Shown piece after piece: positions 9,243 to 35,491 of a stretch of 64,000 nucleotides of DNA. A program made the position numbers and the translations under genes. A model generated the notes under the pieces. That model did not search any database, was not told where the DNA came from, and saw nothing but the letters and a program-made list of their open reading frames with translations. Positions within the stretch are counted from its first letter, which is position 1; the number at the start of each line of letters is the position of its first letter. The DNA is from Natrinema sp. DC36 (GTDB lineage Archaea; Halobacteriota; Halobacteria; Halobacteriales; Natrialbaceae): assembly GCF_020405225.1 (NCBI RefSeq), contig NZ_CP084472.1:3844001-3908000 (forward strand), in the 5' to 3' direction.

Positions 9243-10137
9243 ATGCCCGATAATACCGTCTCAACGATCATCCGGCCCGACGGCGGACAGTACCGTGTGA
9301 TGGTTCCCCTGTCCAATCCTGAACACGAACAGGATCTTATTGAACTTGCCTCGGCTATCGCTAAACACCGTGGGGGCGTAGTTGAAGCAGTTCACATCGT
9401 AACTGTGCCCGATCAAACGGCCCTCGAGCAAGCCGCCAGTCACGTCAATGAGATAGACGCTGAATCAGCGGACCTTCTCGCAAGTGCGCGTTCGGACGCA
9501 AATACCTTCGGCATCGACGTCGAGACTCATACTACCTTCGCACACAGGGGTTTCGAGCAAATTTTCGATACTGCCCGTAACCACGGGGCTGACATAGTGG
9601 TGATGGGTTGGGGTGAGCACGGCCAAGTCCGCGTCGAGACACGCCTTGAGGAACCCACAGGAAACCCACCATGCGACTTCCTCGTGTTGCGAGATGGGGG
9701 TTCGATCCGGAACACGTTCTGGTACCAACCGCAGGCGGTCCCGACTCGGATCTGAGTGCGGAGGTCGCGTCCCTGCTCCGGCAGGAGCATGGCTCGGAGG
9801 TGACGTTACTACACGTCCCGACGATTTGGACGAGGGCGAATCGATCCTCCGAGAGTGGGCCGCTAAGCACGACCTAGAGGATGCGACCCTTCAGGTTGAG
9901 TCCGGCGATGTAGAGGTGGCTATCGAACGGGCCGCCCGAGATGCAACGATGGTCGTAATCGGAGCGACTGAGCGAGGACTGTTGGCCCGTTTGGTGACTG
10001 GGTCATTGGTATTGAGTGTCGTTGACGAACTGGAATGTTCGGTGCTACTGGCCAGCGTCCGACGAGACGGTTCTTTCGGGAGCGGCTATTCGGGTTTGGA
10101 AAGTAGACGCTTTCAGGTTGGGAAGTCGCCCCGGTAA
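9243..10137 (+). pseudogene. Tandem universal stress protein, two frameshifts
   Basis: Reads as a two-domain Usp protein like the intact one at 24368-25252, but in three frames. Residues to about CDFLVLRDGG (to ~9698) are in the first frame, FDPEHVLVPTAGGPDSDLS to about LLHVP (~9818) in the second, and DDLDEGES through GATERGLLARLVTGSL to 10137 in the third. The breaks coincide with a GGGGG run (9696-9700) and a CCC run near 9817, so they may be sequencing errors rather than mutations. If intact the protein would bind ATP or act as a stress adaptor next to TrkH. Confidence 0.8.
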
Positions 10138-10191
10138 GGTAGAATGAAGCGACTATTGTATGAACTCGCAGTAAGAGGCACGTCTGCCTGC

Positions 10192-11688
10192 TCACCGTCT
10201 CCAATATGAGGGCGTAAGCAGAACTAAGACAGGAATGATTTCAATACGTCCAATCCACATCAGGAAGATCATCACCACCTTTGTACTCATTGGGAACACC
10301 TCGTAGGTTTCGAATGGTCCGACAATCCCGAACCCGGGACCGATATTGAAGAATGTCGCTGCAGCTGCACTCATCGCCTCGAACTCGCCAATTTGAAGTC
10401 CGACTCGTGAGGTATCAAACACGAGAAATACTGTCGCTGTAATAAAGAAGACGATGCTCACGAGTGTATATGCATAAACATCTCTGATCGTCTCTTCATC
10501 GATGACTTCACCGGATAATCGAACTGGACGAACCGCTTGTGGGTGACCCGCGATAAAGAGATCACGCCTAAAGGACTTTAATACGACGAGCCAGCGAAGT
10601 GCTTTAATCGAACATGTCGTACTGCCTGCCATTCCGCCAATGAACATGCAAATGAATAACAAATTCTTCGTAGAGGCAGACCAGATGTTGAAATCTGCAC
10701 TTGCATATCCGGTTGTTGTGGTTATCGAGACTACTTGAAATATCGCGTGGCGAACCGTCGCTTCTATACTTTCAGGGTATATTGCATCAAAGCTAAGAAT
10801 CGTGGCAACGCCAATACTGAAAAAGAGCAAAATACCAATATAGAATCGGAATTCCTCACTCTCGTAAAGTCGTTTGTGTTGTCCTTGGAGGGCGAGATAG
10901 ATTAGAATGAAATTCGTTGCGCCGATAGCCATGAATGCAATCACAACCCATTGGACTGCAGGCGAGAACGCTGCCAGACTCTCGGGCTGGGGCGAAAACC
11001 CACTTGTCGAAATGGTTGTGAAAGGGTGAGCAATCGCATCGTAGAGCGTCATATTTGGTGCGAGACCGGCAAGATGAAGGAGATACAAGATTACCATTTG
11101 TGAGATAGTAAGACCAGCATATAGAGTCCAAAGAAGGCGTGCAGTTTCCGTGATTCGGGGGGTTAGTTTCGTAACATTCCTCGTTTGTGTTTCCGTTTCC
11201 ATTAGCTGAGCACCCGCAACTCCCAAATGTGAGAAGATTGCTGTCGCGAGAACAAGGATCCCTAATCCTCCAAGCCATTGGATGAGTTGCCGCCACATGA
11301 GGATTGACTGGGAATGGACAGAGAAGTCAACGATAGCTGTTGCGCCTGTTGTTGTGATTCCGCTCATACTCTCGAACAATGCATTGATTGGATGTGCAAG
11401 AGACCCCTCACCAGCAACCACAAACGGAATTGCACCAATTACGGCGACAGCAAGCCAAGTGAGTGCAACCATGAGGAATGCTTCTCTGGTATCGAGATCA
11501 CGATCCTCTGTAAGACGTTCTAATGAAATCCCTACAATTACTGTAACAATGATTGTGATTACGAATGGAGAAAGATCCTCTCTATAAGCAATCGCGACCA
11601 CAACTGGCAATAATAGTGGTGCTGAGAGCCATTTTAACACAGTTCCGACAAGGCTACAGCTCGCACGCCAATTCACACGCATACTCAT
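10192..11688 (-). CDS. trkH: TrkH-family potassium uptake channel subunit
   Basis: K+-translocating membrane subunit, 498 residues. All four pore-loop motifs are visible with their filter glycines: ITTTGAT (about 110), FTTISTSGFSP (about 225), ITTTTGYA (about 325) and FFNIGPGFG (about 450), separated by membrane-helix pairs (M1-P-M2 repeats). It would work with an NAD/ATP-binding TrkA-type gating partner. No complete TrkA is adjacent, although RCK proteins are abundant later in the element. It is convergent with the frameshifted Usp gene upstream. The first methionine is used; MRVNWRAS two residues later is also possible. Confidence 0.93.
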   Translation of the reverse strand: MSMRVNWRASCSLVGTVLKWLSAPLLLPVVVAIAYREDLSPFVITIIVTVIVGISLERLTEDRDLDTREAFLMVALTWLAVAVIGAIPFVVAGEGSLAHPINALFESMSGITTTGATAIVDFSVHSQSILMWRQLIQWLGGLGILVLATAIFSHLGVAGAQLMETETQTRNVTKLTPRITETARLLWTLYAGLTISQMVILYLLHLAGLAPNMTLYDAIAHPFTTISTSGFSPQPESLAAFSPAVQWVVIAFMAIGATNFILIYLALQGQHKRLYESEEFRFYIGILLFFSIGVATILSFDAIYPESIEATVRHAIFQVVSITTTTGYASADFNIWSASTKNLLFICMFIGGMAGSTTCSIKALRWLVVLKSFRRDLFIAGHPQAVRPVRLSGEVIDEETIRDVYAYTLVSIVFFITATVFLVFDTSRVGLQIGEFEAMSAAAATFFNIGPGFGIVGPFETYEVFPMSTKVVMIFLMWIGRIEIIPVLVLLTPSYWRR

Positions 11689-11840
11689 AAGAAAACACCT
11701 CTAGTATGACACACACTCTCTCTTGTAGATAAAGAAGCGGAAAACAGTATGTACATTTTCTCTGTATCTACTGATGAGGTTATTATAGTCCCTCCTACAA
11801 GGCAGAACCGGATTTATTCATCTATCCCTGTATCCTTTGT

Positions 11841-12320: not shown

Positions 12321-12356
12321 TTCTGCTTTGGTTTATCTGAAAGGCAAGCCGACTCT

Positions 12357-12574: not shown

Positions 12575-13006
12575 ATGTATGACGATATTCTGGTTCCGAC
12601 CGATGGGAGTGAATCGAGTATGGCGGCGGTTGACCAAGCTATCACGATAGCAGAGGGTAAAGCGACGACAGTTCACTTCCTGAATGTAGTGGACGTGGGT
12701 ACGGAGATGTCCGCAAGCGCGTCCGGTAGCATCGCACCCCAACTTACGGAGACGCTTGAGAAGGAAGCCGAGTCAGCCCTCAATGACGCTGTAAATCGAG
12801 CCGACGAGGCAGGCGTGCAGTACGATCGAACTATCCGCGAAGGCGATCCCCACGAAGTAATTGTGGAGAATAGTGTTGAACACAACATCAACCTCATCGT
12901 CATGGGCGCAAGCGGCCGATCAGGTCTGAAAGAACACCTCCTCGGTAGTACATCCGACCGTGTCATTCGCACAGTAGAGACATCTGTCCTACTGGCACGA
13001 GCCTAA
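12575..13006 (+). CDS. Universal stress protein, single domain
   Basis: 143 residues with the standard Usp fold: ILVPTDGSESS at the start, and the nucleotide-binding signature GASGRSGLKEHLLGSTSDRVIR near residues 110-130 (G-2x-G-9x-G-S/T). This pattern predicts ATP binding. It lies about 180 nt upstream of the KhtT/KhtU pair on the same strand and may sense stress for the transporters, as Usp proteins near haloarchaeal transporters are thought to do. Confidence 0.9.
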   Translation: MYDDILVPTDGSESSMAAVDQAITIAEGKATTVHFLNVVDVGTEMSASASGSIAPQLTETLEKEAESALNDAVNRADEAGVQYDRTIREGDPHEVIVENSVEHNINLIVMGASGRSGLKEHLLGSTSDRVIRTVETSVLLARA

Positions 13007-13185: not shown

Positions 13186-13680
13186 ATGGCCGTCTACGAG
13201 AGCGATCTCCCCGGTGTCGGGAAGAAGTTCGAGGTCGAATTCGATGACGGCGAATTGCTGGTCATCGTGACACACAACACGGGGAAGCGGGAAGTATACC
13301 TGAAAGCGGACACGGATGCCGACAGCGAGAAGATATTCGAGGCCTCGGATCAGCTCGCTCGGAAGATCGGTACAATTCTGGAAGGGGCGTACTTTCAACC
13401 AGTGCAGGCTGAACAGGTAGAAACGATGCTCACCGAGGATACCTACCTCGAGTGGTACAGCGTTGCCGAGGGTGCCGAAATAGCCGGTCAGAGCCTCATT
13501 GAGTCGAATATTCGTGATAGGACCGGTGTCTCCATCGTCGCTATTCAGCGTGGTGAGGAACTGATCTCGCCGCCGACGCCTGAGTCGGTCCTCGAGATTG
13601 GCGATACGTTAGTCGTTGTCGGTGACCGCGAGGACTGCACCAAGTTCGAAGAACTGCTCGGAGCTGGACTCGAAGAGTGA
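13186..13680 (+). CDS. khtT: KhtT-like RCK_C regulatory subunit of K+/H+ antiporter
   Basis: 164 residues. The N-terminal part MAVYESDLPGVGKKFEVEF matches the KhtT-type domain; the C-terminal half (about 85-160) is an RCK_C (TrkA-C) domain with GQSLIESNIRDRTGVSIVAI and EIGDTLVVVGDRED. In Bacillus, KhtT controls the CPA2 antiporter KhtU, binding c-di-AMP and sensing pH and salt. The antiporter gene follows 34 nt downstream, so the pair reads as a KhtTU operon. A GTG-started membrane partner and close spacing suggest coupled translation. Confidence 0.88.
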   Translation: MAVYESDLPGVGKKFEVEFDDGELLVIVTHNTGKREVYLKADTDADSEKIFEASDQLARKIGTILEGAYFQPVQAEQVETMLTEDTYLEWYSVAEGAEIAGQSLIESNIRDRTGVSIVAIQRGEELISPPTPESVLEIGDTLVVVGDREDCTKFEELLGAGLEE

Positions 13681-13714
13681 TCGCGACAAATGTTCCTTCC
13701 TCAGGTGAGCGATA

Positions 13715-15046
13715 GTGGCGACTGAAACGGCACTCGTCGACGTCGGCATCCTCTTTACCGCAGTCGCACTAGTTGGTTTCCTCTCGAGTCGGATTGATCA
13801 GTCGGTGATCCCGTTTTACATCATCATTGGGGTGTTATTAGGATCGAATGTATTGGGCGAACTCCCCGCCCTCGCAGGCAGTGAGGTCGGAATTGGCGGT
13901 ATCACAGTCACCGTTCCTGAGGTAACTATTGGCGGGATCGAACTTCTCGCAGCGCTTGGCGGACTCGCACTCAGCGAAACCGACTTTATCGTCGTCGGTG
14001 CAGAGATTGGGATCGTCCTTCTATTATTCTTCCTAGGCCTCGAGTTTAACCTGAGTCGATTGATCGCGAGTAAGGACCGTATCGGCAAAGCGGGATCTGT
14101 CGATCTTGTCATCAACTTCGGTATCGGGCTAGTCTTTGGCTATCTCATTTTTGGGAGCTTTCTCGCGGCTTTCCTTACAGCAGGAATCGTCTACATCTCC
14201 TCGAGTGCAATCATTACGAAGTCACTGATTGATCTGGGCTGGATCGCTAATGACGAGTCCGAACCGATGCTAGGGACGCTCGTCTACGAGGACCTGTTTA
14301 TCGCGATCTACCTAGCGATTGCATCCGCGCTAGTCTTGGGTGGCGGCGATATCGGGGAGGCCGCGGGCCAGATCGGAATCGCGGTCGGGTTCATTCTTGT
14401 GTTGCTCGGGCTCGTTACCTTCGGAACCGATTTCTTTCAGTGCTTTCTCGATGCCGACACGAACGAGTTTCTAGTTGTCCGCGCATTAGGCGTCACAATC
14501 CTCGTCGCTGGAATCGCGCTTGCGTTGGGCGTCAGTGAGGCCGTCGCCGCGTTCTTCGTCGGTATGGCCTTTTCGTCGACCGATCACGTCCACGACTTGG
14601 AGCAACTGCTTGAGCCGTTGCGAGACGCCTTCGCGGCGATCTTCTTCTTCTGGATCGGCCTCGTGACCGATCCGGGGCTGTTCACGCTCTCAATTCTCGG
14701 GATGATCGTCGCCGCCGTCGTCGTGACGACGCCGACAAAAATTGTCAGTGGCTACCTCGGTGGGCGGATATATGGCCTTGATGACCGTCGATCGCTTCGG
14801 GTCGGATTTGGAATGGCCACCCGCGGCGAGTTCTCCCTGATCATCTCGAGTCTTGCCCTCTCTGGGGCCGGCAGTAGCATGGCAGCGGAGACGGCGCAGA
14901 CGATCTATGCCTTTACCGTCGGGTACGTTCTCGTCATGAGCATTCTCGGGACGTCGCTCATGCAGTACTCAAGCCAAATCGAGCCCGTCGCCGTCTCGCT
15001 GTTCGAACGGGCCCGCAACGGAACTCCACGGCCGACCGACAATTGA
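13715..15046 (+). CDS. khtU: KhtU-like CPA2 cation/proton antiporter
   Basis: GTG start at 13715; 443 residues and about 12 membrane helices with no cytoplasmic RCK tail, as in KhtU. CPA2 landmarks include a long N-terminal hydrophobic region, LLFFLGLEFNLSRL (about 105-118), SSSAIITKSLIDLGW (about 165) and the C-terminal GFGMATRGEFSLIISSLAL (about 365). It should exchange K+ (or Na+) for H+ across the membrane under control of the KhtT subunit encoded just upstream. Direction and ion choice cannot be read from sequence. Confidence 0.88.
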   Translation: MATETALVDVGILFTAVALVGFLSSRIDQSVIPFYIIIGVLLGSNVLGELPALAGSEVGIGGITVTVPEVTIGGIELLAALGGLALSETDFIVVGAEIGIVLLLFFLGLEFNLSRLIASKDRIGKAGSVDLVINFGIGLVFGYLIFGSFLAAFLTAGIVYISSSAIITKSLIDLGWIANDESEPMLGTLVYEDLFIAIYLAIASALVLGGGDIGEAAGQIGIAVGFILVLLGLVTFGTDFFQCFLDADTNEFLVVRALGVTILVAGIALALGVSEAVAAFFVGMAFSSTDHVHDLEQLLEPLRDAFAAIFFFWIGLVTDPGLFTLSILGMIVAAVVVTTPTKIVSGYLGGRIYGLDDRRSLRVGFGMATRGEFSLIISSLALSGAGSSMAAETAQTIYAFTVGYVLVMSILGTSLMQYSSQIEPVAVSLFERARNGTPRPTDN

Positions 15047-16717: not shown

Positions 16718-17640
16718 ATTTATTACAATAGTATTGTAGTAGTATTAACGTATAAAACACTGGGTCGATTTATATTAGAAGATATACATTAGATGGGGTT
16801 TTAGAAGATTATGGTAGTGGGAGTCGTTGAATTAGGCCACCTGAATTCACGCGGTCTGCAACTGCCTGTGGACAGCCCAGCACCTCAATTTCTATTTGAG
16901 TTTTTGCTCGCATCGCAAATCGTCTAGAGTTTCGTGTTATAGCGAATAATATCTGTTCTCTAGCTATCACAGAACTTGCTAAGAAGAACCGAATGCCTCG
17001 TTCAGAACGTCTTCTCTGTACTAAACCAGTGGCTCGTGAGCGTTCTTTTGTGGCGAGGCACTCTACCATTTCACGAAAACGACGGATTATTCATAACGAT
17101 GAGAAATGAGGTCTGTACGACCTCTAATTTCTTTTTCCAGTAGTCTATAGAAATTGGACCGACAGAAACTGTGTCCAGAAATACTGTATAGTGGTTAAAA
17201 CGCCTCAAAGTAAAAAACTCTCCAACAAAGACTGTATACACATAACCTTAACAAGAATTAGTATAAAGGAGACCGATTAAGGTATACTCATTCAGCATAA
17301 TTGGATTTAGTAGTCGTATTAATTATACTCCTGAATATATACTATGTATCTCCCCTAATCAGCCATATAAATAAACAAATGCTTGTTATAAGTACACCTA
17401 TTCAATATACCTTGCTGTGTCTATATTCTCTTCAGCCTTTTCTATAATCGACAATTCCTCCTAGTATAATTCCTGTAACTGGTAGAGAAAGGTTTTATTC
17501 CCGATCTGGGTCTAATGGGTTTCCATACGCTTCCGAGACCTATCTTGTGAGCCTCTGAAAAAAGAAACTCCACTTCTTAGTTGTGCCTTCAGATAGTGTG
17601 TGATTTACCAACAATAACTAAATTGTTTAATCATTCATAA
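16718..17640. other. AT-rich intergenic zone
   Basis: About 920 nt with no convincing gene. A 86-codon minus-strand frame (16809-17069) has no recognisable motif and is not called. The rest is strongly AT-rich with many stops. It contains one copy of the 31-bp direct repeat (17311-17341). Confidence 0.5.
17311..17341 (+). repeat. 31-bp direct repeat, copy 1
   Basis: Identical to 35852-35882. Weaker similarity extends on both sides (for example AATCAGCCATATAA here versus AATCAGCGATATAA there), so the two loci descend from a longer common sequence. The two copies bracket an 18.5-kb block that includes the antiporter and channel genes. Confidence 0.8.
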
Positions 17641-20688: not shown

Positions 20689-20963
20689 TCGAGATCTACG
20701 TATTGGTTTTCCCAGTCTCGGCGGGCTTCAAGTTCCCGAGTACCACGAGAAGTGATTGAGTAGATATTGGTACGCTGGTCTCTTTCACCTTTCTCGACGA
20801 GTCCTTTGTCGACGACTTCGTCTAGGTTTGGGTAGAGTCGTCCATGATGGATTTCTTTCTCGTAGTAGTTCTCGAGTTCGTCTTTGATGGCGAGGCCGTG
20901 TGGTTTCTCTTGGCCGGCGATGACGTACAGTAGGTCGCGTTGGAATCCCGTGAGGTCGTACAT
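20685..20963 (-). CDS. PadR-family winged-helix regulator
   Basis: 92 residues: DLTGFQRDLLYVIAGQEKP, then the recognition region GLAIKDELENYYEKEIHHGR, the wing LYPNLDEVVDKGLVEKGE and DQRTNIYSITSRG. This is the short haloarchaeal PadR form without a C-terminal dimer helix. Close paralogues occur at 55108-55383 (chromosome) and as a truncated copy at 37451-37618. It presumably represses nearby genes; no operator was identified. Confidence 0.85.
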   Translation of the reverse strand: MYDLTGFQRDLLYVIAGQEKPHGLAIKDELENYYEKEIHHGRLYPNLDEVVDKGLVEKGERDQRTNIYSITSRGTRELEARRDWENQYVDLD

Positions 20964-21747: not shown

Positions 21748-21879
21748 GGAACAAAGGCATACTCGGAGACCATATTAATCTCTGGGAGTTCGATGCTTGG
21801 GGATGAGAACAGGGATAATCCGTTGACAACTGAAGAAGACAAACGGGAATGTATTATTCAGCAGAAAAGAGAAGCAGCT

Positions 21880-24296: not shown

Positions 24297-24367
24297 AGTC
24301 GATTCCGAGTATAAGTGTGTAGTGAGTGGCTCTCGAACTCATTTCGGAGTTCCGATTTCCGCTAACG

Positions 24368-25252: not shown

Positions 25253-25366
25253 TACGTATTGAATGTTCCACACCGGATTTAGGAGTTCGGTCCGAACGAT
25301 ATGTAATCGGAGTGAACGAGTTTACAGTGGTGTCGGATTGGCTCGACTTCAATGTCCTGCCCATCA

Positions 25367-27016
25367 CTATCGAAATTCTAGGTCCTCGTGTAAGCGGCGT
25401 TTGTTCCGTGATCCCAACTCTTCGAGCGACACGTCTTCGGTGAGTACCATTCGGATCTTTTCTAGGAGCTGTTCTGAGGCAAGGAAGTCGGGAACGATAA
25501 CGTAATCTGCACCAGCTTCCAGCAAGTCCCCTGCTTCATCGACGCGGTCCGATCGAAGGATGACATCCGCATCCGTCTCTAACCCGAGAATTTGGCTAGA
25601 GACCTGTCGGTCGGATACTGTCGAGAGAATCAATTGCGCTTCATCGGCGTTCGCTCGCTCCCAAGTTTCGCTGCTAACTGCATCGCCGAAGATGTGATTC
25701 TCGTGGGTTGTAGCCAATTCGTGCCGGTCCGGATCGTGTTCGACCACGATAACGGGTTGATCTTCATCTTCACACGTCTGCGCAGCAAGCGTTCCGAGTC
25801 GGCCGTATCCGATGATAATGACGTGGTCTTTCAGGGATGAGTCGACGGAACTTCGACTATTCAGCTTGGAGTGCGTCGATTCAAGCGGGAGGACCCGCAT
25901 CAGAACTCGGTATAGTGGCTCGCTGTACTGGCGAGTCGCGGTTGACGTGATCATCGTGAGTGCTGCAACGAGGATGATCGCCTCGAAGACGTCCGGTTGA
26001 ATCCGCTCTAGGATCAACGCCTGGATCGCGATGATGAGGGCGAACTCGCTCACTTGGTCGAGCCCGAAGCTCGTCAATGATGCTGTTCTGGTTTCGTATC
26101 CCTGATAGAGAAGCGCGTAGATCGTCACCAGAGGCTTGAGTACGACGATTACGAACAATAGTACCCCCGCGAACAACAGTGCACGCGGTGTGGGAACCGT
26201 GATCAGACTGCCGACGGTGACAAAGAAGACGGCAGCGAAGAAATCATCGAACGACTCGAGACCCGCTTCAAGCGCCAATTTGTCCGGGAACTCCCGTGTA
26301 ATCGCTAACCCGGCAGCGAACGCCCCGACGACGATCGAGATGCCGGTCAACTCTGCGAGGCTGATGAACCCGAGGAGGAGTGCGACTCCGGTTAAAATGA
26401 TGAGCTCGTCGGAGTCTCCCGACAGCGAGACAAGTATACCGAACAAGTACACTCGAACGAGCGCTGCGACGAGGAGGATGACGACGCCGTATCCGAGTTT
26501 GAGTACAATACCGTCTGGAGTGAACACGTCCGCGCTCAACACGAGTATGAGCACGACTGCGAACAGGTCCTGTGCGAAATGAATCGACGAGATGAGGCGT
26601 CCCTGAATGAGATTTCGACGGATGTCATGTACGGCGAGTTCTCGTCCGACGAGTGAGGAACTGAGTGCAGCTGCACTCGCGAAGTAGATTGCGTTCAGCG
26701 TGTCGAGTTCGAATACGAGTCCTAGACCGAATACGAGACTTCCGACAAGCAGGACTTGTAGGGCAGCGACGTGCTCGCTGTCCCGTGCGACAGCCCGGAA
26801 CCGTCCTGGTTCGACCTCGACACCGAAGGTGAACACGAGGAATGCGACTCCCCATTGTGCGAGCTCAAGCGTCGTCCCTTGCGGGATAAACGGCGCCAGT
26901 ATCACTCCGACGATGATATAGATCGGCACTGCGGGTATCCCCAGTCGCGTCGCAAACACGAGGAAGATGCCGGCGATGATGAAGATCGCTCCGAGGGGCG
27001 TCAGGAGCTCAACCAT
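25367..27016 (-). CDS. CPA2 antiporter with RCK domain (Kef-like)
   Basis: Kef/NhaS-type cation/H+ antiporter fused to an NAD-binding regulator. From ATG 27016 (MVELLTPLGAIF) 549 residues: about 12 membrane helices to residue ~370, including SSIHFAQDLFAVVL and FGLDQVSEFALIIAI, then an RCK_N domain beginning HVIIIGYGRLGTLAAQ (about 396) with an intact GxGxxG. The C-terminal TrkA-C domain is absent. Its start overlaps the stop of the upstream antiporter by 8 nt, so the two are translationally coupled and may form a heteromer. Confidence 0.9.
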   Translation of the reverse strand: MVELLTPLGAIFIIAGIFLVFATRLGIPAVPIYIIVGVILAPFIPQGTTLELAQWGVAFLVFTFGVEVEPGRFRAVARDSEHVAALQVLLVGSLVFGLGLVFELDTLNAIYFASAAALSSSLVGRELAVHDIRRNLIQGRLISSIHFAQDLFAVVLILVLSADVFTPDGIVLKLGYGVVILLVAALVRVYLFGILVSLSGDSDELIILTGVALLLGFISLAELTGISIVVGAFAAGLAITREFPDKLALEAGLESFDDFFAAVFFVTVGSLITVPTPRALLFAGVLLFVIVVLKPLVTIYALLYQGYETRTASLTSFGLDQVSEFALIIAIQALILERIQPDVFEAIILVAALTMITSTATRQYSEPLYRVLMRVLPLESTHSKLNSRSSVDSSLKDHVIIIGYGRLGTLAAQTCEDEDQPVIVVEHDPDRHELATTHENHIFGDAVSSETWERANADEAQLILSTVSDRQVSSQILGLETDADVILRSDRVDEAGDLLEAGADYVIVPDFLASEQLLEKIRMVLTEDVSLEELGSRNKRRLHEDLEFR

Positions 27017-28715
27017 CAAACTCACCTCGGATCCAACGGAGGTGGCCAATGTCGCTGTCTACCACCGCCCAGAACTCCTCGGATTCGTTGAAATACAGAC
27101 GCAGGTGGTCGGTCAACTTTTCGCTCGTGAGGGCAGTACTGAGGATGACGTAGTGGGCACCGCGGTCGTACAGGTCAGCTGCATCCTCCGTTGATTCGGC
27201 CTCGGCGAAGACGACTGTATCGTCCCCAATTTCTTCAAGGAGAATTCGGTTAATATCCGGCTCAACCGTCGAACTCAACACGAACGCTGCTCGCTTGAGT
27301 CCGGCACCGCTACGAATCTCACCGTGTTTGAAATCGCCGTAGATGTACTCGTAGTCGGCGGATTGATGGACCTCTGCGTGGGCGGGATTCCGATCGACGA
27401 CGACGACGTCGCCGAAGTGCTCCTGGAGTAACGGTAACGCGGTGCGAATGATTTCGTCGTACCCAACGACGACGGCATGATCTTGATAGACGTGGAGATC
27501 GACGTCCCGTTTTTCCTCACTCTCAAAACGTGCCAGATAGGGTTTCACTCGCTCGTAAATCTGGTAGTTGTAGTTAATGAGGTACGTCGAGAGACTCATC
27601 GTCACTATCGCCATCAGGCTGAGATACCCCAGTATCGACGCGTCGATGAAGCCCCGGGTAACCGCAAGAGCGCCGACCACGAGCGAGAACTCGCTCACCT
27701 GGGCCATGTTGAGGCTCCCGATGAACGACGTTTCAGGCGTGAACTGCTCCCGGTCGATGAGGTAGAAGATGATCAGGAAGTTCCCGACCATAAGCGCGGC
27801 CGAGGCGATCAACGCTTCGACCCAGTAGGCCAGAAGGCTATCCGCAGCCAGCTGAAGGCCGATACTGGTGAAGAACACGACCATAAAGAAGTCGGTGATC
27901 GGCCGAACTCGTTCTGTGAGTTCGCTCGTATACGGTACCTGTGCGAGACTTAGTCCCGCGAGGAACGCACCGACTTCGAGTGAGAGGTTGAGCTGTTCGG
28001 TTCCGAGGATGAAGACGAATGCCCACGCAATACCGACGATGAAAAACGCCCGTCTGTCCTCAGCAACAGCCCTGAACAGCGATGGCAAGAGATACCGTGC
28101 GGAGAGATAGGAGATGATGCCAACGCCACCCATCAACAGCAGTATCGTTCCGACACTGACGGCGATTTCTTGAGGGTTCGAGAGTGACTCAGCGCTCAGG
28201 ACCGCAAGCAGAATAACGAGATAGATGTCCTGGATGATGAGTACGCCGACGTCGATCTTCCCCGGGAGCGTTGCCAGTTCGTCCTTGTCGGAAAGCAGTT
28301 TCACGATAATCGGTGTCGCCCCGAAGACGGTCGCGAGTGCGATGACTGTCGTTTCGAGTAACGTGAAACCCAGCGCGAAGGCGACCACAAAGGCGAGTGC
28401 GGTCTGCAGAATCGTCTGCCAGATTGCGATATTGATGATGGGGCGGAGGATCTCACGAATATCGTCGATACGCATCTTCATTCCGATGAGGAAGAGGAGA
28501 AATCCAAGCCCGAGTTCGCTCATCAAGACCACCAGTTCGGACTGGGAAACGACGTCAAGGAAGACCGGACCGAGGACTAAGCCTGTGAAGATGTATGCGA
28601 CGATCGTCGGTTGCCCCGTTAACCGAGCGAGATAACTAAGAAGAACAGCTGTAATAATGATAACCGCAAAATCTGTCGCAAAAGGGAGCGATCCGGTCTG
28701 CAGAAGTCCAATCAT
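27009..28715 (-). CDS. CPA2 antiporter with degenerate RCK domain
   Basis: From ATG 28715 (MIGLLQTGSLPFATDF) 568 residues; an in-frame ATG at 28766 would add 17 atypical ones. Transmembrane region to about residue 390 with LGLGFLLFLIGMKMRIDDIR, VGVLIIQDIYLVILL and LNMAQVSEFSLVVGA, typical of CPA2. The following RCK-like domain starts HAVVVGYDEIIRTALPLL: the nucleotide-binding GxGxxG is replaced, so NAD binding may be lost. It is paired by overlap with the antiporter at 25367-27016 whose RCK motif is intact. Confidence 0.88.
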   Translation of the reverse strand: MIGLLQTGSLPFATDFAVIIITAVLLSYLARLTGQPTIVAYIFTGLVLGPVFLDVVSQSELVVLMSELGLGFLLFLIGMKMRIDDIREILRPIINIAIWQTILQTALAFVVAFALGFTLLETTVIALATVFGATPIIVKLLSDKDELATLPGKIDVGVLIIQDIYLVILLAVLSAESLSNPQEIAVSVGTILLLMGGVGIISYLSARYLLPSLFRAVAEDRRAFFIVGIAWAFVFILGTEQLNLSLEVGAFLAGLSLAQVPYTSELTERVRPITDFFMVVFFTSIGLQLAADSLLAYWVEALIASAALMVGNFLIIFYLIDREQFTPETSFIGSLNMAQVSEFSLVVGALAVTRGFIDASILGYLSLMAIVTMSLSTYLINYNYQIYERVKPYLARFESEEKRDVDLHVYQDHAVVVGYDEIIRTALPLLQEHFGDVVVVDRNPAHAEVHQSADYEYIYGDFKHGEIRSGAGLKRAAFVLSSTVEPDINRILLEEIGDDTVVFAEAESTEDAADLYDRGAHYVILSTALTSEKLTDHLRLYFNESEEFWAVVDSDIGHLRWIRGEFDG

Positions 28716-28821
28716 ACATACCGTTCCCGTCTCAACTCCAATGAGTATACTGATTTGAGTAGCCAACCGCTCCTTGATTCACCGTGGAGTATTCTTGTTC
28801 TTGGATGACGATACGTGAACT

Positions 28822-28998
28822 ATGGCGCGTACACGTCGGTATTGGTACATTCGTATTGGTATTCTCACACTATGCGGTTTACTGGCAGAAGCGAGTGTCT
28901 GGGTTAGTGTTGGCCGAATTGTTTTCTCAGGGGTTGGTGTGATCGTGATGGTGCTGTTGGCTCTCACTTGGGGGATCGTTCAATTTGAAAATATCTGA
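28822..28998 (+). CDS. Small membrane protein, 58 aa
   Basis: ATG 28822 to TGA 28998. A basic N-terminus (MARTRRYWYIR) is followed by two membrane helices (IGILTLCGLLAEASVWVSV and VFSGVGVIVMVLLALTWGIV). It is divergent from the antiporter gene. Size and layout match the small membrane gene at 11841-12014. Function unknown; it may be a small transporter-associated subunit. Confidence 0.5.
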   Translation: MARTRRYWYIRIGILTLCGLLAEASVWVSVGRIVFSGVGVIVMVLLALTWGIVQFENI

Positions 28999-29041
28999 CC
29001 AAATCGCATACTTGTGATATCATCACATCAATTATCGCCCT

Positions 29042-29227
29042 CTAAGAGTTATATCTTCTTTCGGACAAAACATCCGGAAGCTCGAACAGGCTGGGGCTGA
29101 TCGGGTGCTCAGTCCAGCCGTCATCGGCGCCCAGCTCCTTGTTGAGTCCGCTCTCGAGGGAACCAATCCGAATAATCTACTAAAGAACGTAGAACTGGAT
29201 AATGTTGAGTCTGGGAGTAGAAACTGA
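29042..29227 (+). pseudogene. Remnant of an RCK_N (TrkA-N) domain
   Basis: Reads NIRKLEQAGADRVLSPAVIG then AQLLVESALEGTNPNN to a stop at 29227. This is the end of the RCK_N domain of ligand-gated K+ channels (the AGADxVLSPxxIGxxxL signature). No start, no nucleotide-binding part and no channel precede it, so it is a truncated remnant. It lies 120 nt before the aspartoacylase-like gene. Confidence 0.6.
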
Positions 29228-29350
29228 GAGTCGTTATTCCTCACTGAGCCTATGTCATTATTTGTGACTCGTTGATCAGCCATGGAGCGATGTTGGTTCA
29301 ATACTCCGCATATCGCTGTGTCTTTAATGGATTGATGAGTGGTATGCCCT

Positions 29351-30418
29351 ATGGAGTTCGACGTTTCAGAACCGGAACCCTTCAGGTACGATGCGGAGGT
29401 CGACCCCGGCGAGAAGCGGCAGATTCGTTATGAAGTGGGCGAGAATTATCTTGGGGATTCGGTTGAAATCCCGGTTACGATAATCAACGGTGCGTATGGT
29501 GGACCGACCGTATTTCTGACCGCAGCCATTCATGGTGACGAACTCAACGGGGTGAAGGTCCTTCAAGAGGTTGCCGACCGGTATCGCCCGGGAGAACTCC
29601 ACGGAACGATTGTGTGTCTCCACGTAGTGAACGTGCCGGCCTATCACGCTCAGCAGCGATACATCCCGATCTACGATCAGGACCTCAATCGAGCATTCCC
29701 TGGCCGAGAGCGAAGCAATACCGCCGAACGGATGGCCCACCAGATCTACAGCCGCTTCATCAGTAACTGCGATCTGGGAATCGATTTCCATACGTCGACG
29801 CGTAACCGAACCACGATGTTCCACGTGCGAGCAGACCTCGACAACGAAGACGTCGAACCGCTCGCTCGGTCTTTTGGGGCGAACGTAATCCTGTATGGGG
29901 CAGGCGAATCGAAGTCGTTGCGGTCGGTCGCAACGTCGAGTGGAATTCCAACCATCACTGTCGAGATGGGGCGCGCACAGCGGTTCCAACCGGCGTTGAT
30001 CGAGAAGGCGATAGACGGCGTCGAGAGCGTCTTAGCGCAGTACAGAGCCCTCCCAGATGTCCCAGTCCATTGGCCCGGCTGGTACAAGGTCACAGCGGCC
30101 GACAGTGAGAAGCAGTGGCTTCGAGCCGACACGGGTGGTCTCGTTGATATGGAATGGGGCCCGTATCCGCTTGTACATGAAGGTGATACGATTTGCACGA
30201 TTACGGATCATTTCAAAACCGAGGAACACGTCGTAACCGCGCCCTTCACGGGATTGATTGTTGGTGTACTCGAGAATCCGATCGCACTACCGGGGCACCC
30301 GCTTTGTCATCTCGTTCGACTTGATACTGAGACGCGTGATGAGATCGAGCGCGAGATCCGACGTGGCGAATTCGATGGATATCGCAAGTATAATGGTGAT
30401 TTCAGCGTCGACGCGTAA
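29351..30418 (+). CDS. Succinylglutamate desuccinylase/aspartoacylase-family hydrolase
   Basis: Zinc carboxypeptidase-fold amidohydrolase that removes acyl groups from N-acyl amino acids or related compounds. From ATG 29351 (355 residues): zinc motif AAIHGDELNG (H and E, about 60-69), DLNRAFPG substrate loop, third ligand in DLGIDFHTS, and an ITVEMG active-site Glu near 205. The C-terminal beta domain (about 250-355) matches the family. A TATA-like ctttaatgg about 25 nt upstream supports this start. Substrate is unknown. Its place among K+ transporters suggests a role with an acylated osmolyte or amino acid, which is inference. Confidence 0.85.
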   Translation: MEFDVSEPEPFRYDAEVDPGEKRQIRYEVGENYLGDSVEIPVTIINGAYGGPTVFLTAAIHGDELNGVKVLQEVADRYRPGELHGTIVCLHVVNVPAYHAQQRYIPIYDQDLNRAFPGRERSNTAERMAHQIYSRFISNCDLGIDFHTSTRNRTTMFHVRADLDNEDVEPLARSFGANVILYGAGESKSLRSVATSSGIPTITVEMGRAQRFQPALIEKAIDGVESVLAQYRALPDVPVHWPGWYKVTAADSEKQWLRADTGGLVDMEWGPYPLVHEGDTICTITDHFKTEEHVVTAPFTGLIVGVLENPIALPGHPLCHLVRLDTETRDEIEREIRRGEFDGYRKYNGDFSVDA

Positions 30419-30479
30419 AGATTAAGTACGGAGGGCCTGCGTGAAGGCGTCGGTCTGTCTTGATGTCTGCCTCCTACTA

Positions 30480-30660
30480 TCATATCAGGGTAAGCCCCAG
30501 AAGAACGCGACGGTGAGCTACCCTACTCGCCACGGCTGACGCCGTTCGCTCCTTGAGGGTAGGGCTTCCTGTTTCCACGACGCGCTTTGCAGATACAGAC
30601 GTATCTATAGGGAGCGCAGTCTCCACAGGCGTTGATTCGGAGTATCGAATCTTCGTGTGA
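30480..30660 (-). pseudogene. TnpB C-terminal remnant (IS605/IS1341 type)
   Basis: The minus strand reads STPVETALPIDTSVSAKRVV and ETGSPTLKERTASAV, the highly conserved tail that follows the zinc finger in haloarchaeal IS1341-type TnpB proteins, then diverges to a stop at 30480. The catalytic RuvC part and zinc finger are absent. The surrounding 350-nt gap holds no other gene. Confidence 0.7.
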
Positions 30661-30771
30661 GTGATTTGTTGTCAAAGACTGGTCCCTCGTGATATCGGTC
30701 GCTATTCTGATCGTACTGGAAACAGTGAACGAACAGTATGTCTATACTGCTCCAGTTACTGTGAGCAATAT

Positions 30772-31989
30772 ATGGTTCTGGCACCGATAACTGAGGGTAT
30801 ATTTGGAATTTATCTTGGATTATTAGCAGCTATTTTCCCAGCATTCATCGCGTTTTCTATCGGATTCATATTTAAGTATTTCACCACAGTTACTATCCCG
30901 GGACTCGGCGTCGTTGCCCTGGGTGGCACGCTTGCGGGGGTATCAGGCGGATTGATGGGTTTGATGGATCCGACGCTCTCCGAGAGCTGGACAGGCATCA
31001 GCGCTGTCTTAGTAATCCTGATGGCCTGTCTATGGGCGCATAGTCAAGGGGACAAACTTGCGGTTGCCACCCCTCGGAGACTGACGTTGAAATCAATTCG
31101 AGAAACGAAACTCTCTGTAGATCTCACTGAGCGCGTTGATTCCTACGGTCAGGTGCGTATCCGCCCTATCGGAGAGATTCACGACATTGAGGGGTATCCA
31201 CAGTTATCCGAAGACCTGCGAGAACAACTCAGCAACAGCTCTTGGAAGTTTCCCGCCGACCTCTCGCTACCTGAACTCGAATCGCGTCTTGAGGAGCGTC
31301 TGTCGACTGACTACGAACTCGCCGAAGTGAACGCTACTATCGACAAACAGGGGCGGGCCCAGATTGCTGCGGCACCGACCGCCGCGGGACTGTCTCGGCG
31401 CATCCCATCGGGGAAGCGGGCTGTTACAATTCAAACCGTCCTTCCAACCGGTGTCGCACGTGGCGACCACGTGACGCTCCAGTTCCCTGACGGAAACGTT
31501 ACGGGTCCCGTGGTTAGCGCACGGACGACGGGAGTCGAGGCGAAGAGCGAACCCGCCCCAGCGGAGGAGATAGACGGTGAGGAAGGCAGTGTGAAACAGA
31601 TCGTCCCGAAGATGACAACGACTGGCGGAGAGGGCGCTGTTACCATCGCTGTCTCACTTGACGACGGGAAGCGAATCGTCCGCGATGATTTCGCACCGAT
31701 GACGGTCAACTCACGAGGGAAACAGCGAGAGTACGAAACGATTGCCGTTCTCAAACAACACGGCAACCGGTTTCGAAAACTGGTTGTGAACGAACGGGGT
31801 CCACTCGCGGGCACCACCATCGGTGCTTCACAGGTGCGTGACGCCTACGGGGTAGCGGTTCTGGCGGTTCGGCGTGCATCGGAGTTAATCATCGCACCGC
31901 GAGGGGCTACCGAACTCCTTGCTGGTGACGAACTAATCGTCGTCGGAAAACCCTCCCAACTCCGTGCGTTCGAGGAGGCGACAACATGA
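30772..31989 (+). CDS. Membrane protein with C-terminal RCK_C domain (pair, first gene)
   Basis: From ATG 30772 (MVLAPITEGIFGIYLGLLAA) 405 residues: about three membrane helices (6-30, 40-60, 74-92), a long cytoplasmic region with repeated beta-rich segments (VDSYGQVRIRPIGEIHDIEG and on), and a C-terminal RCK_C domain (about 340-400: AGTTIGASQVRDAYGVAVLA, then AGDELIVVGKPSQLRAFEEA). RCK_C domains sense ligands or nucleotides in K+ channels, but no pore motif is present here. It overlaps the next gene by 4 nt (ATGA). Known channel families do not match; function is unassigned. Confidence 0.75.
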   Translation: MVLAPITEGIFGIYLGLLAAIFPAFIAFSIGFIFKYFTTVTIPGLGVVALGGTLAGVSGGLMGLMDPTLSESWTGISAVLVILMACLWAHSQGDKLAVATPRRLTLKSIRETKLSVDLTERVDSYGQVRIRPIGEIHDIEGYPQLSEDLREQLSNSSWKFPADLSLPELESRLEERLSTDYELAEVNATIDKQGRAQIAAAPTAAGLSRRIPSGKRAVTIQTVLPTGVARGDHVTLQFPDGNVTGPVVSARTTGVEAKSEPAPAEEIDGEEGSVKQIVPKMTTTGGEGAVTIAVSLDDGKRIVRDDFAPMTVNSRGKQREYETIAVLKQHGNRFRKLVVNERGPLAGTTIGASQVRDAYGVAVLAVRRASELIIAPRGATELLAGDELIVVGKPSQLRAFEEATT

Positions 31990-33233
31990 GTTTGGTTTCG
32001 ACAGTTCTCACGAATCCGTTTGTCGAAGGATTGGTCAGGATACTTGGTCTCTCGTTATTGGCGTTTACAGTAACGACAGTCGTCACGTTCGTGTTCCGGG
32101 TTCGGGTTCGCCAACAATTCCCGGAAGGTGCGACACTCATCGTCGGGCTGGGTGTCGTTGCAATCTACCTCAACTCCCGTTCGGCGCTCATCCAATTCAT
32201 CAGTAACACGGGTGATCCCGTCACTGCAGAGGAAGCGATTCTCAATGTGTCAGCATTCGTCGTAGCTGGGATCGTGTCGTATGCAGGCCGATACGTGGGC
32301 GATAGAGCGGGGGCATCAGAGCGAGTTCGATGGCGGAACACCGCGCCGGATTTCAGCCCGTTGGTTCGAGCTACTGGTCGATTCATTACAGTTACCTTAC
32401 CGGAAACCGTCGAGGATATTGACGGCTACGACGCCGTCGATGCGGAAATGAAGAAAATAGTTTCCGGAAAGACAATGGATTTCCCCCGCGGGTTAACAAT
32501 CGAAGAATTGGAGTCCCAGATTACAGCTCGGTTGAAGGACGAACACGATATCGGCTACGTCGATGCCGACCTTGACGCGGATGGGGTCGTCCAGTACCTC
32601 GCTATCGGTCAACGTGCGGCGGGGCTCGGACAGACGCTCCCGCAGAAATCCGCGGCTGTAGCAGTTCGTGCAGATCCCCCTTATAGTGCAACTGCGGGAG
32701 ACACAGTGCAGGTGTGGCAGACAAACGACGACGGCGTCAAAACACGCCTCGGGGAGGCAGAACTCCGGGGGAGTGTTGGGACGTTTGCGACGCTCGCGAT
32801 GGATTCGGCCTCAGCTACTGAAATCGATCCTACAGAGGAATATCGGCTGATGACGCTATCCGCTGATTCGAACCCTGAGCGAGAGTTCGCTGCGATGCTC
32901 AGGCGTGAAGACGAGACGATGAGCACCGTCGAAATCACAGCCGATAGCCCGCTTATCGGGTGCACCATCGGAGCATTAGACGTGACTGTCATCGCCATTC
33001 GAAGCAACGACGGAGAGCTCGAAACCATTCCCCAACGAGAGCACACCATTCAGTCGGGAGATCTTCTCTTTTCAATCGGTCGTCCGGAAGTGCTCCGGAA
33101 GTTAGAGTCCGAGGTAGGCGCACGTATCACTCCCGTCGAAGACGTCCTCGAAGACACCGATCAACTCTCGTTCCAACAGACACCATCCGACGATCAACTG
33201 GAGACTTCAACTGTCGATAACAAGCCGTCTTGA
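31986..33233 (+). CDS. Membrane protein with C-terminal RCK_C domain (pair, second gene)
   Basis: 415 residues, paralogous in layout to the preceding gene: three membrane helices (about 10-38, 47-64, 84-102), a VEDIDGYDAVDAEMKKIVSG linker, a cytoplasmic beta-rich body, and an RCK_C domain at about 315-385 (DSPLIGCTIGALDVTVIAIR, then IQSGDLLFSIGRPEVLRKLE). An acidic tail follows. The 4-nt ATGA overlap with the first gene implies a stable two-subunit complex. No ion-selectivity filter is visible, so it may be a regulatory or novel transport assembly. Confidence 0.75.
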   Translation: MSLVSTVLTNPFVEGLVRILGLSLLAFTVTTVVTFVFRVRVRQQFPEGATLIVGLGVVAIYLNSRSALIQFISNTGDPVTAEEAILNVSAFVVAGIVSYAGRYVGDRAGASERVRWRNTAPDFSPLVRATGRFITVTLPETVEDIDGYDAVDAEMKKIVSGKTMDFPRGLTIEELESQITARLKDEHDIGYVDADLDADGVVQYLAIGQRAAGLGQTLPQKSAAVAVRADPPYSATAGDTVQVWQTNDDGVKTRLGEAELRGSVGTFATLAMDSASATEIDPTEEYRLMTLSADSNPEREFAAMLRREDETMSTVEITADSPLIGCTIGALDVTVIAIRSNDGELETIPQREHTIQSGDLLFSIGRPEVLRKLESEVGARITPVEDVLEDTDQLSFQQTPSDDQLETSTVDNKPS

Positions 33234-33375
33234 TCCACCGTTTCGAGGCGGAAGTTCGCCCCCTCAGCGAGCGAGCGGATCTAAAGACCTCCAAACGAAG
33301 TAGGCAGGGACGTTTCCTTTTGACTGTTGCACATTACCACATCCTATATACGGGTCGTTTACTGAGAACTGACGT

Positions 33376-33762
33376 ATGATTCCGTTCTACATCGGTGAGG
33401 TGATGCGAAAGCGAGCTGAGGAACTCGAAAAAGAGCGAAAGGCTGCCAGAGCTATCGAAAAACTCGAAGACCCAGAAGTAGACCTCGTTGTCGTTACTGA
33501 TCGTGGTAACCCAGTTGGAGTCTTTACCGACGCTGAAGTGGTTACCCTAATTGCCGAGAAAAAAGACATGGCTGAAACCACCCTTGCTGAGTGTCAACTC
33601 TCCCCTGTCGTGACGATTAATGAACTTGAGGAGGTTGAAACTGCAGCGACATTGATGAATGAACATGGGATGCGCCATCTCCTCGTTACGAAAGCAAATC
33701 AGATCATCGGATATTTGATGGATAAGGATGTGAGAGGCGCAGTTACAAAAGACCCGAAATAA
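33376..33762 (+). CDS. CBS-domain protein
   Basis: 128 residues forming a Bateman module of two CBS motifs: DLVVVTDRGNPVGVFTDAEV (about 36-55) and GMRHLLVTKANQIIGYLMDK (about 95-115). Such modules bind AMP, ATP or S-adenosylmethionine and gate channels or enzymes. The first ~30 residues form a charged helix (KRAEELEKERKAARAIEKLE) rather than a standard first motif, so it may oligomerise. It lies between the RCK_C pair and the K+ channel. Confidence 0.8.
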   Translation: MIPFYIGEVMRKRAEELEKERKAARAIEKLEDPEVDLVVVTDRGNPVGVFTDAEVVTLIAEKKDMAETTLAECQLSPVVTINELEEVETAATLMNEHGMRHLLVTKANQIIGYLMDKDVRGAVTKDPK

Positions 33763-33765
33763 ATC

Positions 33766-33966
33766 TCACTCAAATAATTTTTTATAAGCATACCACATAT
33801 TTTGAATAATAAATACGAAAAGTAAAAGAAGAAATGAAAGTGTTGCGTACCAGTGGGAACTTGTACCCCAAAAGACCACTGTAATGAGTGAGATTAAAAT
33901 CACAAGTGGATTGAAATTATATCTGACAAGATCTTTTATCGTATCTTTCTCCGGCAGGTTAGTCAT
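33766..33966 (-). CDS. Small membrane protein
   Basis: From ATG 33966 (MTNLPEKDTIKDLVRYNF) 66 residues with two membrane helices (PLVILISLITVVFWGT and LSFLLLLFVFIIQNMW) and a basic end. It follows the K+ channel gene on the same strand (51 nt gap) and may be an accessory subunit. AT-rich codons, unlike the channel gene, suggest a different origin. Confidence 0.45.
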   Translation of the reverse strand: MTNLPEKDTIKDLVRYNFNPLVILISLITVVFWGTSSHWYATLSFLLLLFVFIIQNMWYAYKKLFE

Positions 33967-34017
33967 GTATGGGTTCTGAATTGGGTGTTTGAATACTCTA
34001 CTCCTTTGCAACGGCCA

Positions 34018-34887
34018 TCACTCTGTTCCAGCTTCGGTTTCAGTATCAGTATGGTTTTCGGGCGGTCTGTTAGTAAGTTCATCTACCTCCCCGCCGCAAT
34101 GGGGACAGTATTGCGTCCCCTGACGTCGACGGTCCAGTTCCTCCGCAAAGCCGGAGGCAATGATACCGGCCGGCAGCGCGAACAGCGCGATACCCAGCAA
34201 CGCGATCATCGCCCCGAGCGCCCGCCCAAGCGGTGTGATTGGTACAACATCACCGTACCCAACAGTTGTCAAGGTAACAATTCCCCACCAGAGAGCGGCC
34301 GGAATACTGGAGTACACCTCTGGTTGGGCGCCCCGTTCGGCGTAGTACATGAGACTAGAAACAAAGACGAGCCAAATACTCATCACGAGGACGGTAATCA
34401 GCAACTCTTCCGCTTTCCGGCGAAACACGTTCGTAATCAGTGTCAGCGAATTCGAGTAGCGCGCAATCTTCAGCAGACGGAACAGGCGGAAGATCCGGAG
34501 CACCCGTTCTGCGCCCTTTTCACCAAGGACTATCGGTAGATAGAATGGGAAGATGGCGATCAGGTCGATGAGCGCATAAGGTGAGAGCATGAACCGAATG
34601 CGACCACGAACGGGACTCGAGTACCGCTTGTTGACGGTACACGACCAAACACGGAGCACGTACTCGACGGTGAACACACTGACACAGAACACGTCAAAGG
34701 CGTCGAAGAGTTGTCCATACTGTGCGCTGACCCACGGCACCGTTCCCGCGATATACGTGGCGACGTTGAGGACGATGAGCGCCATAATGAAGAGGTTCGT
34801 CCCGAAGGAGATCCAACTCTCTCTGTGTGATCCGTCAAGAAGGAAGTAGACGCGTTCTTTGAGGGGCCGAGACGAGTCCATCGCCAT
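34018..34887 (-). CDS. Voltage-gated-type K+ channel with zinc-ribbon tail
   Basis: 289 residues, six membrane helices. S4 carries regularly spaced Arg/Lys (RVLRIFRLFRLLKIARYS, about 128-145), and the selectivity filter TTVGYGD is at 207-213, so it should be K+-selective and voltage-responsive. After S6 a short cytoplasmic tail contains CPHCGGE (261-267), one CxxC knuckle, then an acidic end. No RCK domain is attached, though RCK proteins are encoded on both sides. Tetramerisation would bring four CxxC knuckles together, which could form a metal or redox site (inference). Confidence 0.9.
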   Translation of the reverse strand: MAMDSSRPLKERVYFLLDGSHRESWISFGTNLFIMALIVLNVATYIAGTVPWVSAQYGQLFDAFDVFCVSVFTVEYVLRVWSCTVNKRYSSPVRGRIRFMLSPYALIDLIAIFPFYLPIVLGEKGAERVLRIFRLFRLLKIARYSNSLTLITNVFRRKAEELLITVLVMSIWLVFVSSLMYYAERGAQPEVYSSIPAALWWGIVTLTTVGYGDVVPITPLGRALGAMIALLGIALFALPAGIIASGFAEELDRRRQGTQYCPHCGGEVDELTNRPPENHTDTETEAGTE

Positions 34888-35011
34888 TTGATGTTTACTC
34901 AGTCGAACGACGATATAAGAGCCCTGTTATAAGTTTGTGCTGGGATGAAATACAATAGCTTCGCGGTAAGAGAGGCCGAACAGTAATTACCCCGCCCGGT
35001 CCATTACGACT

Positions 35012-35491
35012 ATGCAGGTTTTTGAGACACAGTTACCGGGCATCGGACGGCGATACCAAGTCTCGTTCCCCGACGGAGGAACGTTCACGATCGTCATTCA
35101 CAACGACGGATTACGGCGGGTGTTCTGGCGAGACGATCCGGACGGCGACAGCGAGGAACTGTTCACGACAACCGAACGCGACGCACAGAAACTCGCAGAG
35201 ATCTTCGAAGGAGTGTTCTTCGAACCCGTTTCTGACGACCTCGACGATGCACTCTCCGAGTCCCGCGTCAAATGGGTGGTTATTCCGGACGAATCATCAG
35301 TTGTCGGACAGACAATTGGCGAAGTTGGTATCCGGGCGCGGACGGGAATCTCGATTCTTGCCATCGAACGCGGTGACCAAACAATAGCAAATCCGCCGCC
35401 AGATGCACAGTTACAGGCAGATGATATCCTCGTCGTCGTCGGTGAAGACGATGCATATCAGGCACTCGATACCCTGCTCTCTCAACCCTGA
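35012..35491 (+). CDS. Orphan KhtT-like RCK_C protein
   Basis: 159 residues, same architecture as the KhtT at 13186-13680: N-terminal MQVFETQLPGIGRRYQVSFP domain, C-terminal RCK_C (VVGQTIGEVGIRARTGISIL, then LQADDILVVVGEDDAYQALD). No KhtU-type antiporter follows; instead an IS remnant comes 15 nt after the stop, so the partner may have been lost. Otherwise it could regulate one of the other transporters. It is divergent from the K+ channel with a 124-nt shared promoter region. Confidence 0.85.
   Translation: MQVFETQLPGIGRRYQVSFPDGGTFTIVIHNDGLRRVFWRDDPDGDSEELFTTTERDAQKLAEIFEGVFFEPVSDDLDDALSESRVKWVVIPDESSVVGQTIGEVGIRARTGISILAIERGDQTIANPPPDAQLQADDILVVVGEDDAYQALDTLLSQP

Follow-up and report, generated by a model that had tools for sequence, protein, structure and literature searches.

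A laterally transferred potassium and turgor-control module on a tRNA-integrated element of Natrinema sp. DC36, with c-di-AMP as its likely common signal

The window analyzed here is a stretch of 64,000 nucleotides of the haloarchaeon Natrinema sp. DC36, positions 3844001-3908000 of the 4.1-Mb main contig of a 5.1-Mb genome assembled in 7 contigs. Between 23.1 and 35.5 kb of this window lies a block of cation-transport and regulatory genes, which is interpreted, with measured confidence, as a laterally transferred module for the control of K+ and turgor, with cyclic di-AMP (c-di-AMP) as the likely common signal. The module has been captured on an element integrated at a tRNA gene, along with a separate segment encoding TrkH, Usp and KhtTU proteins. 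The parts are of known kinds; their mobile combination, linked to a diadenylate cyclase (DAC) domain, appears to be undescribed in archaea. No description of such a block, or of a plasmid-borne haloarchaeal DAC, was found in a search that covered the open-access but not the subscription literature.

The gene families were assigned by Pfam at window coordinates. They confirm the cation-gene families listed in the first-pass annotation and their clustering, and the block has a second copy elsewhere in the genome. The genes of the module are as follows:

23136-24296, minus strand: MscS mechanosensitive channel (PF00924, PF21082), the left end of the conserved module
24368-25273, minus strand: two-domain universal stress protein, usp (PF00582 in two stretches, E 6e-35)
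25367-27049, minus strand: Kef-type antiporter A, kefA, with CPA2 and TrkA_N domains (PF00999 and PF02254)
27009-28766, minus strand: Kef-type antiporter B, kefB, with CPA2 and TrkA_N domains (PF00999 and PF02254), overlapping A by 41 bp
29339-30418, plus strand: AstE/AspA-family zinc hydrolase (PF24827, E 7e-43)
30772-31989, plus strand: RCK_C membrane protein 1, rck1 (PF02080), with three predicted N-terminal helices, a soluble middle part and RCK_C
31986-33233, plus strand: RCK_C membrane protein 2, rck2 (PF02080), overlapping protein 1 by 4 bp
33376-33762, plus strand: CBS-domain protein (PF00571, E 4e-13)
34018-34887, minus strand: voltage-gated-type K+ channel, Ion_trans (PF00520, E 1e-32)
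35012-35491, plus strand: second KhtT, khtT2, with no adjacent KhtU (B. subtilis KhtT 7agv, E 5e-19), the right end of the module

The same genes recur in the same order on other replicons. The region 23122-35506 has its second copy on the strain's own contig C3 (334 kb, plasmid-like), where most pieces are 90-97% identical in nucleotides. The window order is kept there, with an NhaP-type antiporter, an amino-acid-permease/Usp fusion and a duplicated CBS and channel piece (87% nucleotide identity) as extras. The plasmid pNVE500 of Natrinema versiforme reads mscS, usp, kefA, kefB, AstE/AspA, (FAD oxidoreductase), rck1, rck2, small ORF, CBS, small ORF, channel and khtT, with conjugation genes within a few kb of the block. 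In Halorientalis salina (genome G230) the order is likewise conserved, with khtU and one more khtT added. Partial copies occur in genome G238, without AstE/AspA and the RCK_C pair, in genome G227, where the contig end truncates the block at kefB, and in N. caseinilyticus, which retains mscS-usp together with trkH-trkA. A plasmid of Natronosalvus amylolyticus carries a more diverged and rearranged set. At least three other replicons, two of which belong to other species, have ten genes in this order. Because the same genes lie in the same order on C3, on pNVE500 and in H. salina, with the partial copies in addition, the block at 23.1-35.5 kb is, judged by gene order, a transferable module and not a chance juxtaposition. 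A transferable module had been proposed for the whole of 9.2-35.5 kb, to be judged by conserved gene order on other elements and set against the case of genes merely juxtaposed or separately inserted. Such an order was found for 23.1-35.5 kb, where that case is contradicted; the proposal does not extend to the whole region, since the sister copies share 23.1-35.5 kb only and KhtTU has independent copies.

The link to c-di-AMP comes from the sister copies. A 186-amino-acid DAC-domain protein is encoded beside mscS in C3, pNVE500, G230, G238, G227 and N. caseinilyticus, and all five copies that keep mscS-usp-kefA-kefB (C3, pNVE500, G230, G238 and G227) carry it there. Against PF02457 (cut-off 27) the C3 protein scores 28.7 bits and that of pNVE500 27.0, with the N. 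caseinilyticus protein below the cut-off at 24.4. The motifs are intact: in an alignment of 30 sequences including DacZ, the short DAC keeps DGA, conserved in nearly all members, and G-x-R-H-M, the latter as in the host DacZ, with G-x-R-H and another Arg conserved. The AlphaFold model (pLDDT 85.9, pTM 0.83) has a DAC fold; the best 50 PDB matches listed by Foldseek are all diadenylate cyclases (DacA, CdaA, CdaM, DacM and DisA), the top ones having E ~1e-6 and TM 0.5-0.56. The short DAC of the module is regarded as a candidate c-di-AMP synthase. A 55-amino-acid ORF with weak DUF1931/histone-fold matches lies directly upstream of the DAC in C3, pNVE500, G230 and G238. The pairing of a DAC-domain gene with mscS resembles the dacZ-mscS2 operon of Haloferax volcanii (PMC6741144), and the host genome's own dacZ overlaps an mscS gene. 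In contrast to dacZ-mscS2, the mobile DAC has 186 amino acids and no DacZ N-domain, and its gene converges on mscS within a large transporter cluster.

Protein identities date the spread of the block. The KefB proteins of G230, G238 and G227 show 93-94% identity to that of the window, and their DACs 88-92% identity to that of C3; across the families, KefB identity spans 91-94%. Because these values far exceed the 71-74% identity of the core DacZ among the same genomes, which belong to other families, the block has, by this measure, moved laterally after these lineages split.

The linkage of the DAC to K+ genes extends beyond the module. Among 292 genomes, 19 encode a close relative of KefB as well as one of the short DAC, and the two lie at most 10 kb apart in 9 of the 19, where 0.18 would be expected under random placement. 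Four of these nine share a near-identical block; the other five have diverged arrangements and by themselves still greatly exceed the expected number, the Poisson values serving as a guide only since the genomes are related. The short DAC is also found in 24 plasmid records. Monovalent-cation transport genes (KhtTU, TrkA/H, Kef, K+ channels) lie within ~8 kb of the plasmid DAC in 11 of 16 stretches, and in none of eight control stretches from the same plasmids; of the other five DAC stretches, two carry MgtE together with CBS and three carry genes of neither kind. Two of the 16, from Halorussus limi and Halosimplex aquaticum, do not count independently, being one shared piece with identical protein accessions. 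These species belong to different families, and their common permease-DAC-TrkA-TrkH-KhtTU stretch (L139, L149) is, as far as sequence can tell, a recent transfer. The Mg2+ transporter MgtE is found near the short DAC on the strain's own C3 (L010:13362-14621; with CBS in this copy) and on plasmids of Haladaptatus and Halorussus halophilus (L142, L150), which hints that the kit also has a Mg2+ version. The linkage of the DAC to the module suggests that the shared signal is c-di-AMP.

The CBS domains of some transporters bind c-di-AMP, and TrkA_N domains bind nucleotides in relatives of KtrA and KefC. The c-di-AMP receptors also include RCK_C proteins (PMC8517857) and the Usp domain of S. aureus KdpD (PMC4686210). 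KhtT1, encoded to the left of the module, and KhtT2 match B. subtilis KhtT (7agv) over both domains (E 1e-26 and E 5e-19), and their RCK_C domains also match KtrA (4xtt); both reference structures were solved with c-di-AMP. The published RCK_C signature (PMC10117811) is present at seven of seven positions in KtrA and at four of seven in B. subtilis KhtT; since this proven binder itself fails the full signature, the latter does not settle c-di-AMP binding. In B. subtilis, KhtTU export is activated by c-di-AMP, strongly at high pH (PMC10117811). The KhtT of the window, with its N-domain and RCK_C, adjoins a CPA2 antiporter (13186-15046) in the manner of KhtTU in Bacillus subtilis and CpeAB in Streptomyces; it differs in being embedded in a larger mobile element, in having a second KhtT without an adjacent KhtU, and in that its ligand is predicted. 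In the haloarchaeal model of osmoadaptation (Trk, Kef, MscS; PMC4230888), K+ is taken up and lost through the same classes of transporter, whereas in the portion of that source available it treats transporter classes and describes no mobile DAC-linked block. The first-pass annotation had placed sensing in nucleotide-binding RCK, CBS and Usp domains. This is refined to a likely c-di-AMP circuit because the sister copies encode a DAC-domain protein, with the reservation that the window copy encodes none.

We infer the following circuit, in which each step from synthesis to flux is a prediction. The host DacZ would supply c-di-AMP, joined by the module's own DAC protein in those copies that have one; the window copy may draw its signal from DacZ or, in trans, from the DAC of contig C3. 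The predicted readers of the messenger are the module's RCK_C proteins (KhtT and the RCK_C membrane pair) together with its CBS and Usp proteins. Upon a shift in external salt or pH, these putative receptors would adjust the K+ channel, the release of turgor by MscS, and the efflux of K+ through KhtTU and the Kef antiporter pair, the direction of each flux being likewise presumed. A wider and more tentative proposal is that plasmids and tRNA-integrated elements carry self-contained K+ kits, in many cases together with a short diadenylate cyclase of their own. Acquired replicons might in this way add a second c-di-AMP circuit over the essential chromosomal DacZ circuit and reset the salt set point.

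The carrier of the module is a 35.4-kb stretch between two identical, directly repeated 28-nt sequences (6262-6289 and 41667-41694):

6262-6289, plus strand: attL, 28-nt repeat at the 3′ end of a CAT-anticodon tRNA gene (6211-6285, labelled Met(CAT) by ARAGORN)
40588-41610, minus strand: tyrosine integrase (PF00589, E 5e-13; phrog_1, E 1e-27), adjoining the right repeat
41667-41694, plus strand: attR, an exact copy of the 28-nt tRNA 3′ end

Because of the repeats of the tRNA 3′ end, the tyrosine integrase and a fall in GC from ~65% outside to 39-57% inside, the stretch is, by its sequence features, an element integrated at a tRNA gene. The repeats and the integrase uphold the single integrated element of the first-pass annotation. 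It resembles other tRNA-integrated haloarchaeal elements in its 28-nt att repeats at the tRNA 3′ end and in the integrase beside attR; it differs in its cargo, a cation module, with no recognizable viral genes. Ten element proteins, mostly small or of no known family, were compared with PHROGs, and the integrase alone matched; a viral origin of the element backbone was rejected for this reason. The stretch just beyond the element (41695-44823) encodes another tyrosine integrase (43710-44783, minus strand), 55% identical to that of the element, next to a partial att copy with 18 identical nt (44796-44823). This arrangement suggests that an older element lies in tandem at this tRNA site. A 61-nt direct repeat (17281-17341 and 35823-35883), 82% identical overall and exact over its final 31 nt, has one intergenic copy on each side of the module.

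To the left of the module, the element holds the following genes:

9243-10137, plus strand: frameshifted Usp remnant, comprising two ORFs, 9243-9755 and 9613-10137
10192-11688, minus strand: TrkH K+ uptake subunit (PF02386, E 5e-69)
12575-13006, plus strand: universal stress protein, usp2 (PF00582, E 1e-32)
13186-13680, plus strand: KhtT, khtT1, with N-domain and RCK_C (B. subtilis KhtT 7agv, E 1e-26)
13715-15046, plus strand: KhtU-like CPA2 K+/H+ antiporter (PF00999, E 9e-46)
20685-20963, minus strand: PadR-like regulator, with a 71% identical homologue beyond the DAC in pNVE500 and G238

The part from 9.2 to 15.0 kb (broken usp, trkH, usp2 and khtTU) is a separate segment. Its first two ORFs, taken earlier for two tandem Usp proteins, align in three frames to residues 460-739 of a single protein, the amino-acid-permease/Usp fusion on contig C3 (L009:12333-14669). 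They match one Usp pair of this fusion and are therefore remnants of one gene. A TrkA query found no match in the window, and the TrkH of the element has no TrkA partner there. KhtTU has three further close copies in the genome, away from the block. The part from 15.1 to 23.1 kb is unrelated filler of low GC, in which the PadR-like gene is the sole counterpart to the sister copies. The PadR link is weak, the family being broad, and the gene was rejected as proof of a lost DAC region since other PadR paralogues are present in the window. The DAC position beyond mscS is occupied in the window copy by two ORFs without family matches (21061-22773).

Some module genes deserve separate mention. The antiporters A and B share the CPA2 transmembrane and TrkA_N domains of the K+ efflux antiporters KefB and KefC, but form a tandem overlapping pair and score far under the curated cut-offs (87-135 bits vs 752-804 for the KefB/KefC equivalogs); by these scores they are Kef-type and not KefB/KefC proper. 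The AstE/AspA hydrolase has the ectoine-pathway deacetylase DoeB as its nearest NCBIfam model, far below cut-off; its retention in diverged copies argues that it belongs to the module. Between it and rck1, a stretch of ~129 nt (30518-30646) matches IS200/IS605 TnpB elements on many haloarchaeal plasmids and is probably a TnpB remnant of an old insertion. The model of rck1 was not used as evidence since it is too poor overall (pTM 0.29), with the RCK_C domain alone matched. Relatives of rck1 are present in 245 of 291 good-quality haloarchaeal genomes, adjoining an rck2 relative in every locus examined, because of which the mobile pair looks like a specialized paralogue of a near-universal one. 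This near-universal adjacent pair, seen in the host at 3.6-6.1 kb of G000:C1:3960000-3970000 (L011), is a candidate for nucleotide-sensing transporters or regulators, and no literature study of it was found.

Several observations weigh against c-di-AMP as the common signal. The window copy has no DAC by tblastn, and PF02457 matches only C1:1956932 and C3:327112 in the genome (dacZ and the C3 copy), so a DAC hidden in the window was rejected. A plasmid of Natronorubrum aibiense has a solitary mscS relative, without the rest of the block and without a DAC. Short-DAC relatives at 51-56% identity, mostly in Natrialbaceae, sit away from K+ genes; therefore, an association with K+ genes does not hold throughout the DAC family. 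A rule that short DACs always lie beside K+ genes fails likewise, as 17 of 19 other short-DAC neighborhoods have no module transporter (sampled neighbors are a peptidase, a catalase and others). Of the seven signature positions of RCK_C (PMC10117811), khtT1 and khtT2 of the window keep four and rck1 three. In Streptomyces, c-di-AMP is bound by only two of six RCK_C proteins (PMC10117811), and the mscS2 of H. volcanii is deletable and was judged not to be a main c-di-AMP target (PMC6741144). The DAC assignment has its own weak points, namely a weak PF02457 match spanning 68 of 119 positions and TM-scores of only ~0.5.

These points lend themselves to other explanations. The genes may form a transferable K+ and osmotic set without a common messenger, co-selected on plasmids for salt and alkaline tolerance, in which the regulators respond to separate ligands (NAD(H), ATP/ADP, Na+ or pH) and the DAC is one more co-selected stress gene. 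The widely varying composition of plasmid islands, the TrkA_N domains of the Kef antiporters, nucleotide-binding in KtrA/KefC relatives, the incomplete RCK_C signature and the transporters retained in the window without a DAC all fit this explanation, which is a possibility to be taken seriously, if a minority one. It accounts poorly for the DAC beside mscS in all five other copies that keep mscS-usp-kefA-kefB, and for a KefB linkage in nine of 19 genomes that includes five diverged arrangements. It is somewhat more doubtful that the module is the same and its short DAC a degenerate, non-catalytic nucleotide sensor instead of a synthase. The partial Pfam match, the missing DacZ N-domain and RHM in place of the usual RHR would agree with this; however, DGA is kept in nearly all members together with G-x-R-H and a further Arg, and the host DacZ, with the domain layout of the characterized Hfx. 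volcanii enzyme, likewise has RHM. A chance pile-up of unrelated cation genes, inserted separately into one element, is very improbable. The left segment and the filler do differ from the module in their relatives and partly in GC, and the TnpB remnant probably records an insertion, but ten genes keep the same order in the other replicons. The pile-up is thus contradicted for 23.1-35.5 kb and stands only for the join between the left segment and the module. Least credible is an anti-virus system in which a cyclic nucleotide acts on channels as effectors; the block is mobile and a nucleotide-cyclase-like gene adjoins the channels, yet PADLOC matched none of the ten proteins tested and the transporters are of typical housekeeping K+ families. 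The preferred reading stays that of a transferred K+ and turgor-control module with c-di-AMP as its likely signal.

For Hfx. volcanii, c-di-AMP is essential and has been linked to salt and osmotic conditions; dacZ there forms an operon with mscS2, and the targets of c-di-AMP in that archaeon were still to be found in 2019 (PMC6741144). The module and its plasmid relatives provide a short list of candidate receptors encoded beside what may be a second synthase, and the question of c-di-AMP targets thereby becomes directly testable in a genetically tractable haloarchaeon. The results suggest that haloarchaea trade whole signal-controlled salt-balance kits and not single transporters, and that the salt and pH tolerance of salt-in organisms may be acquired in one transfer.

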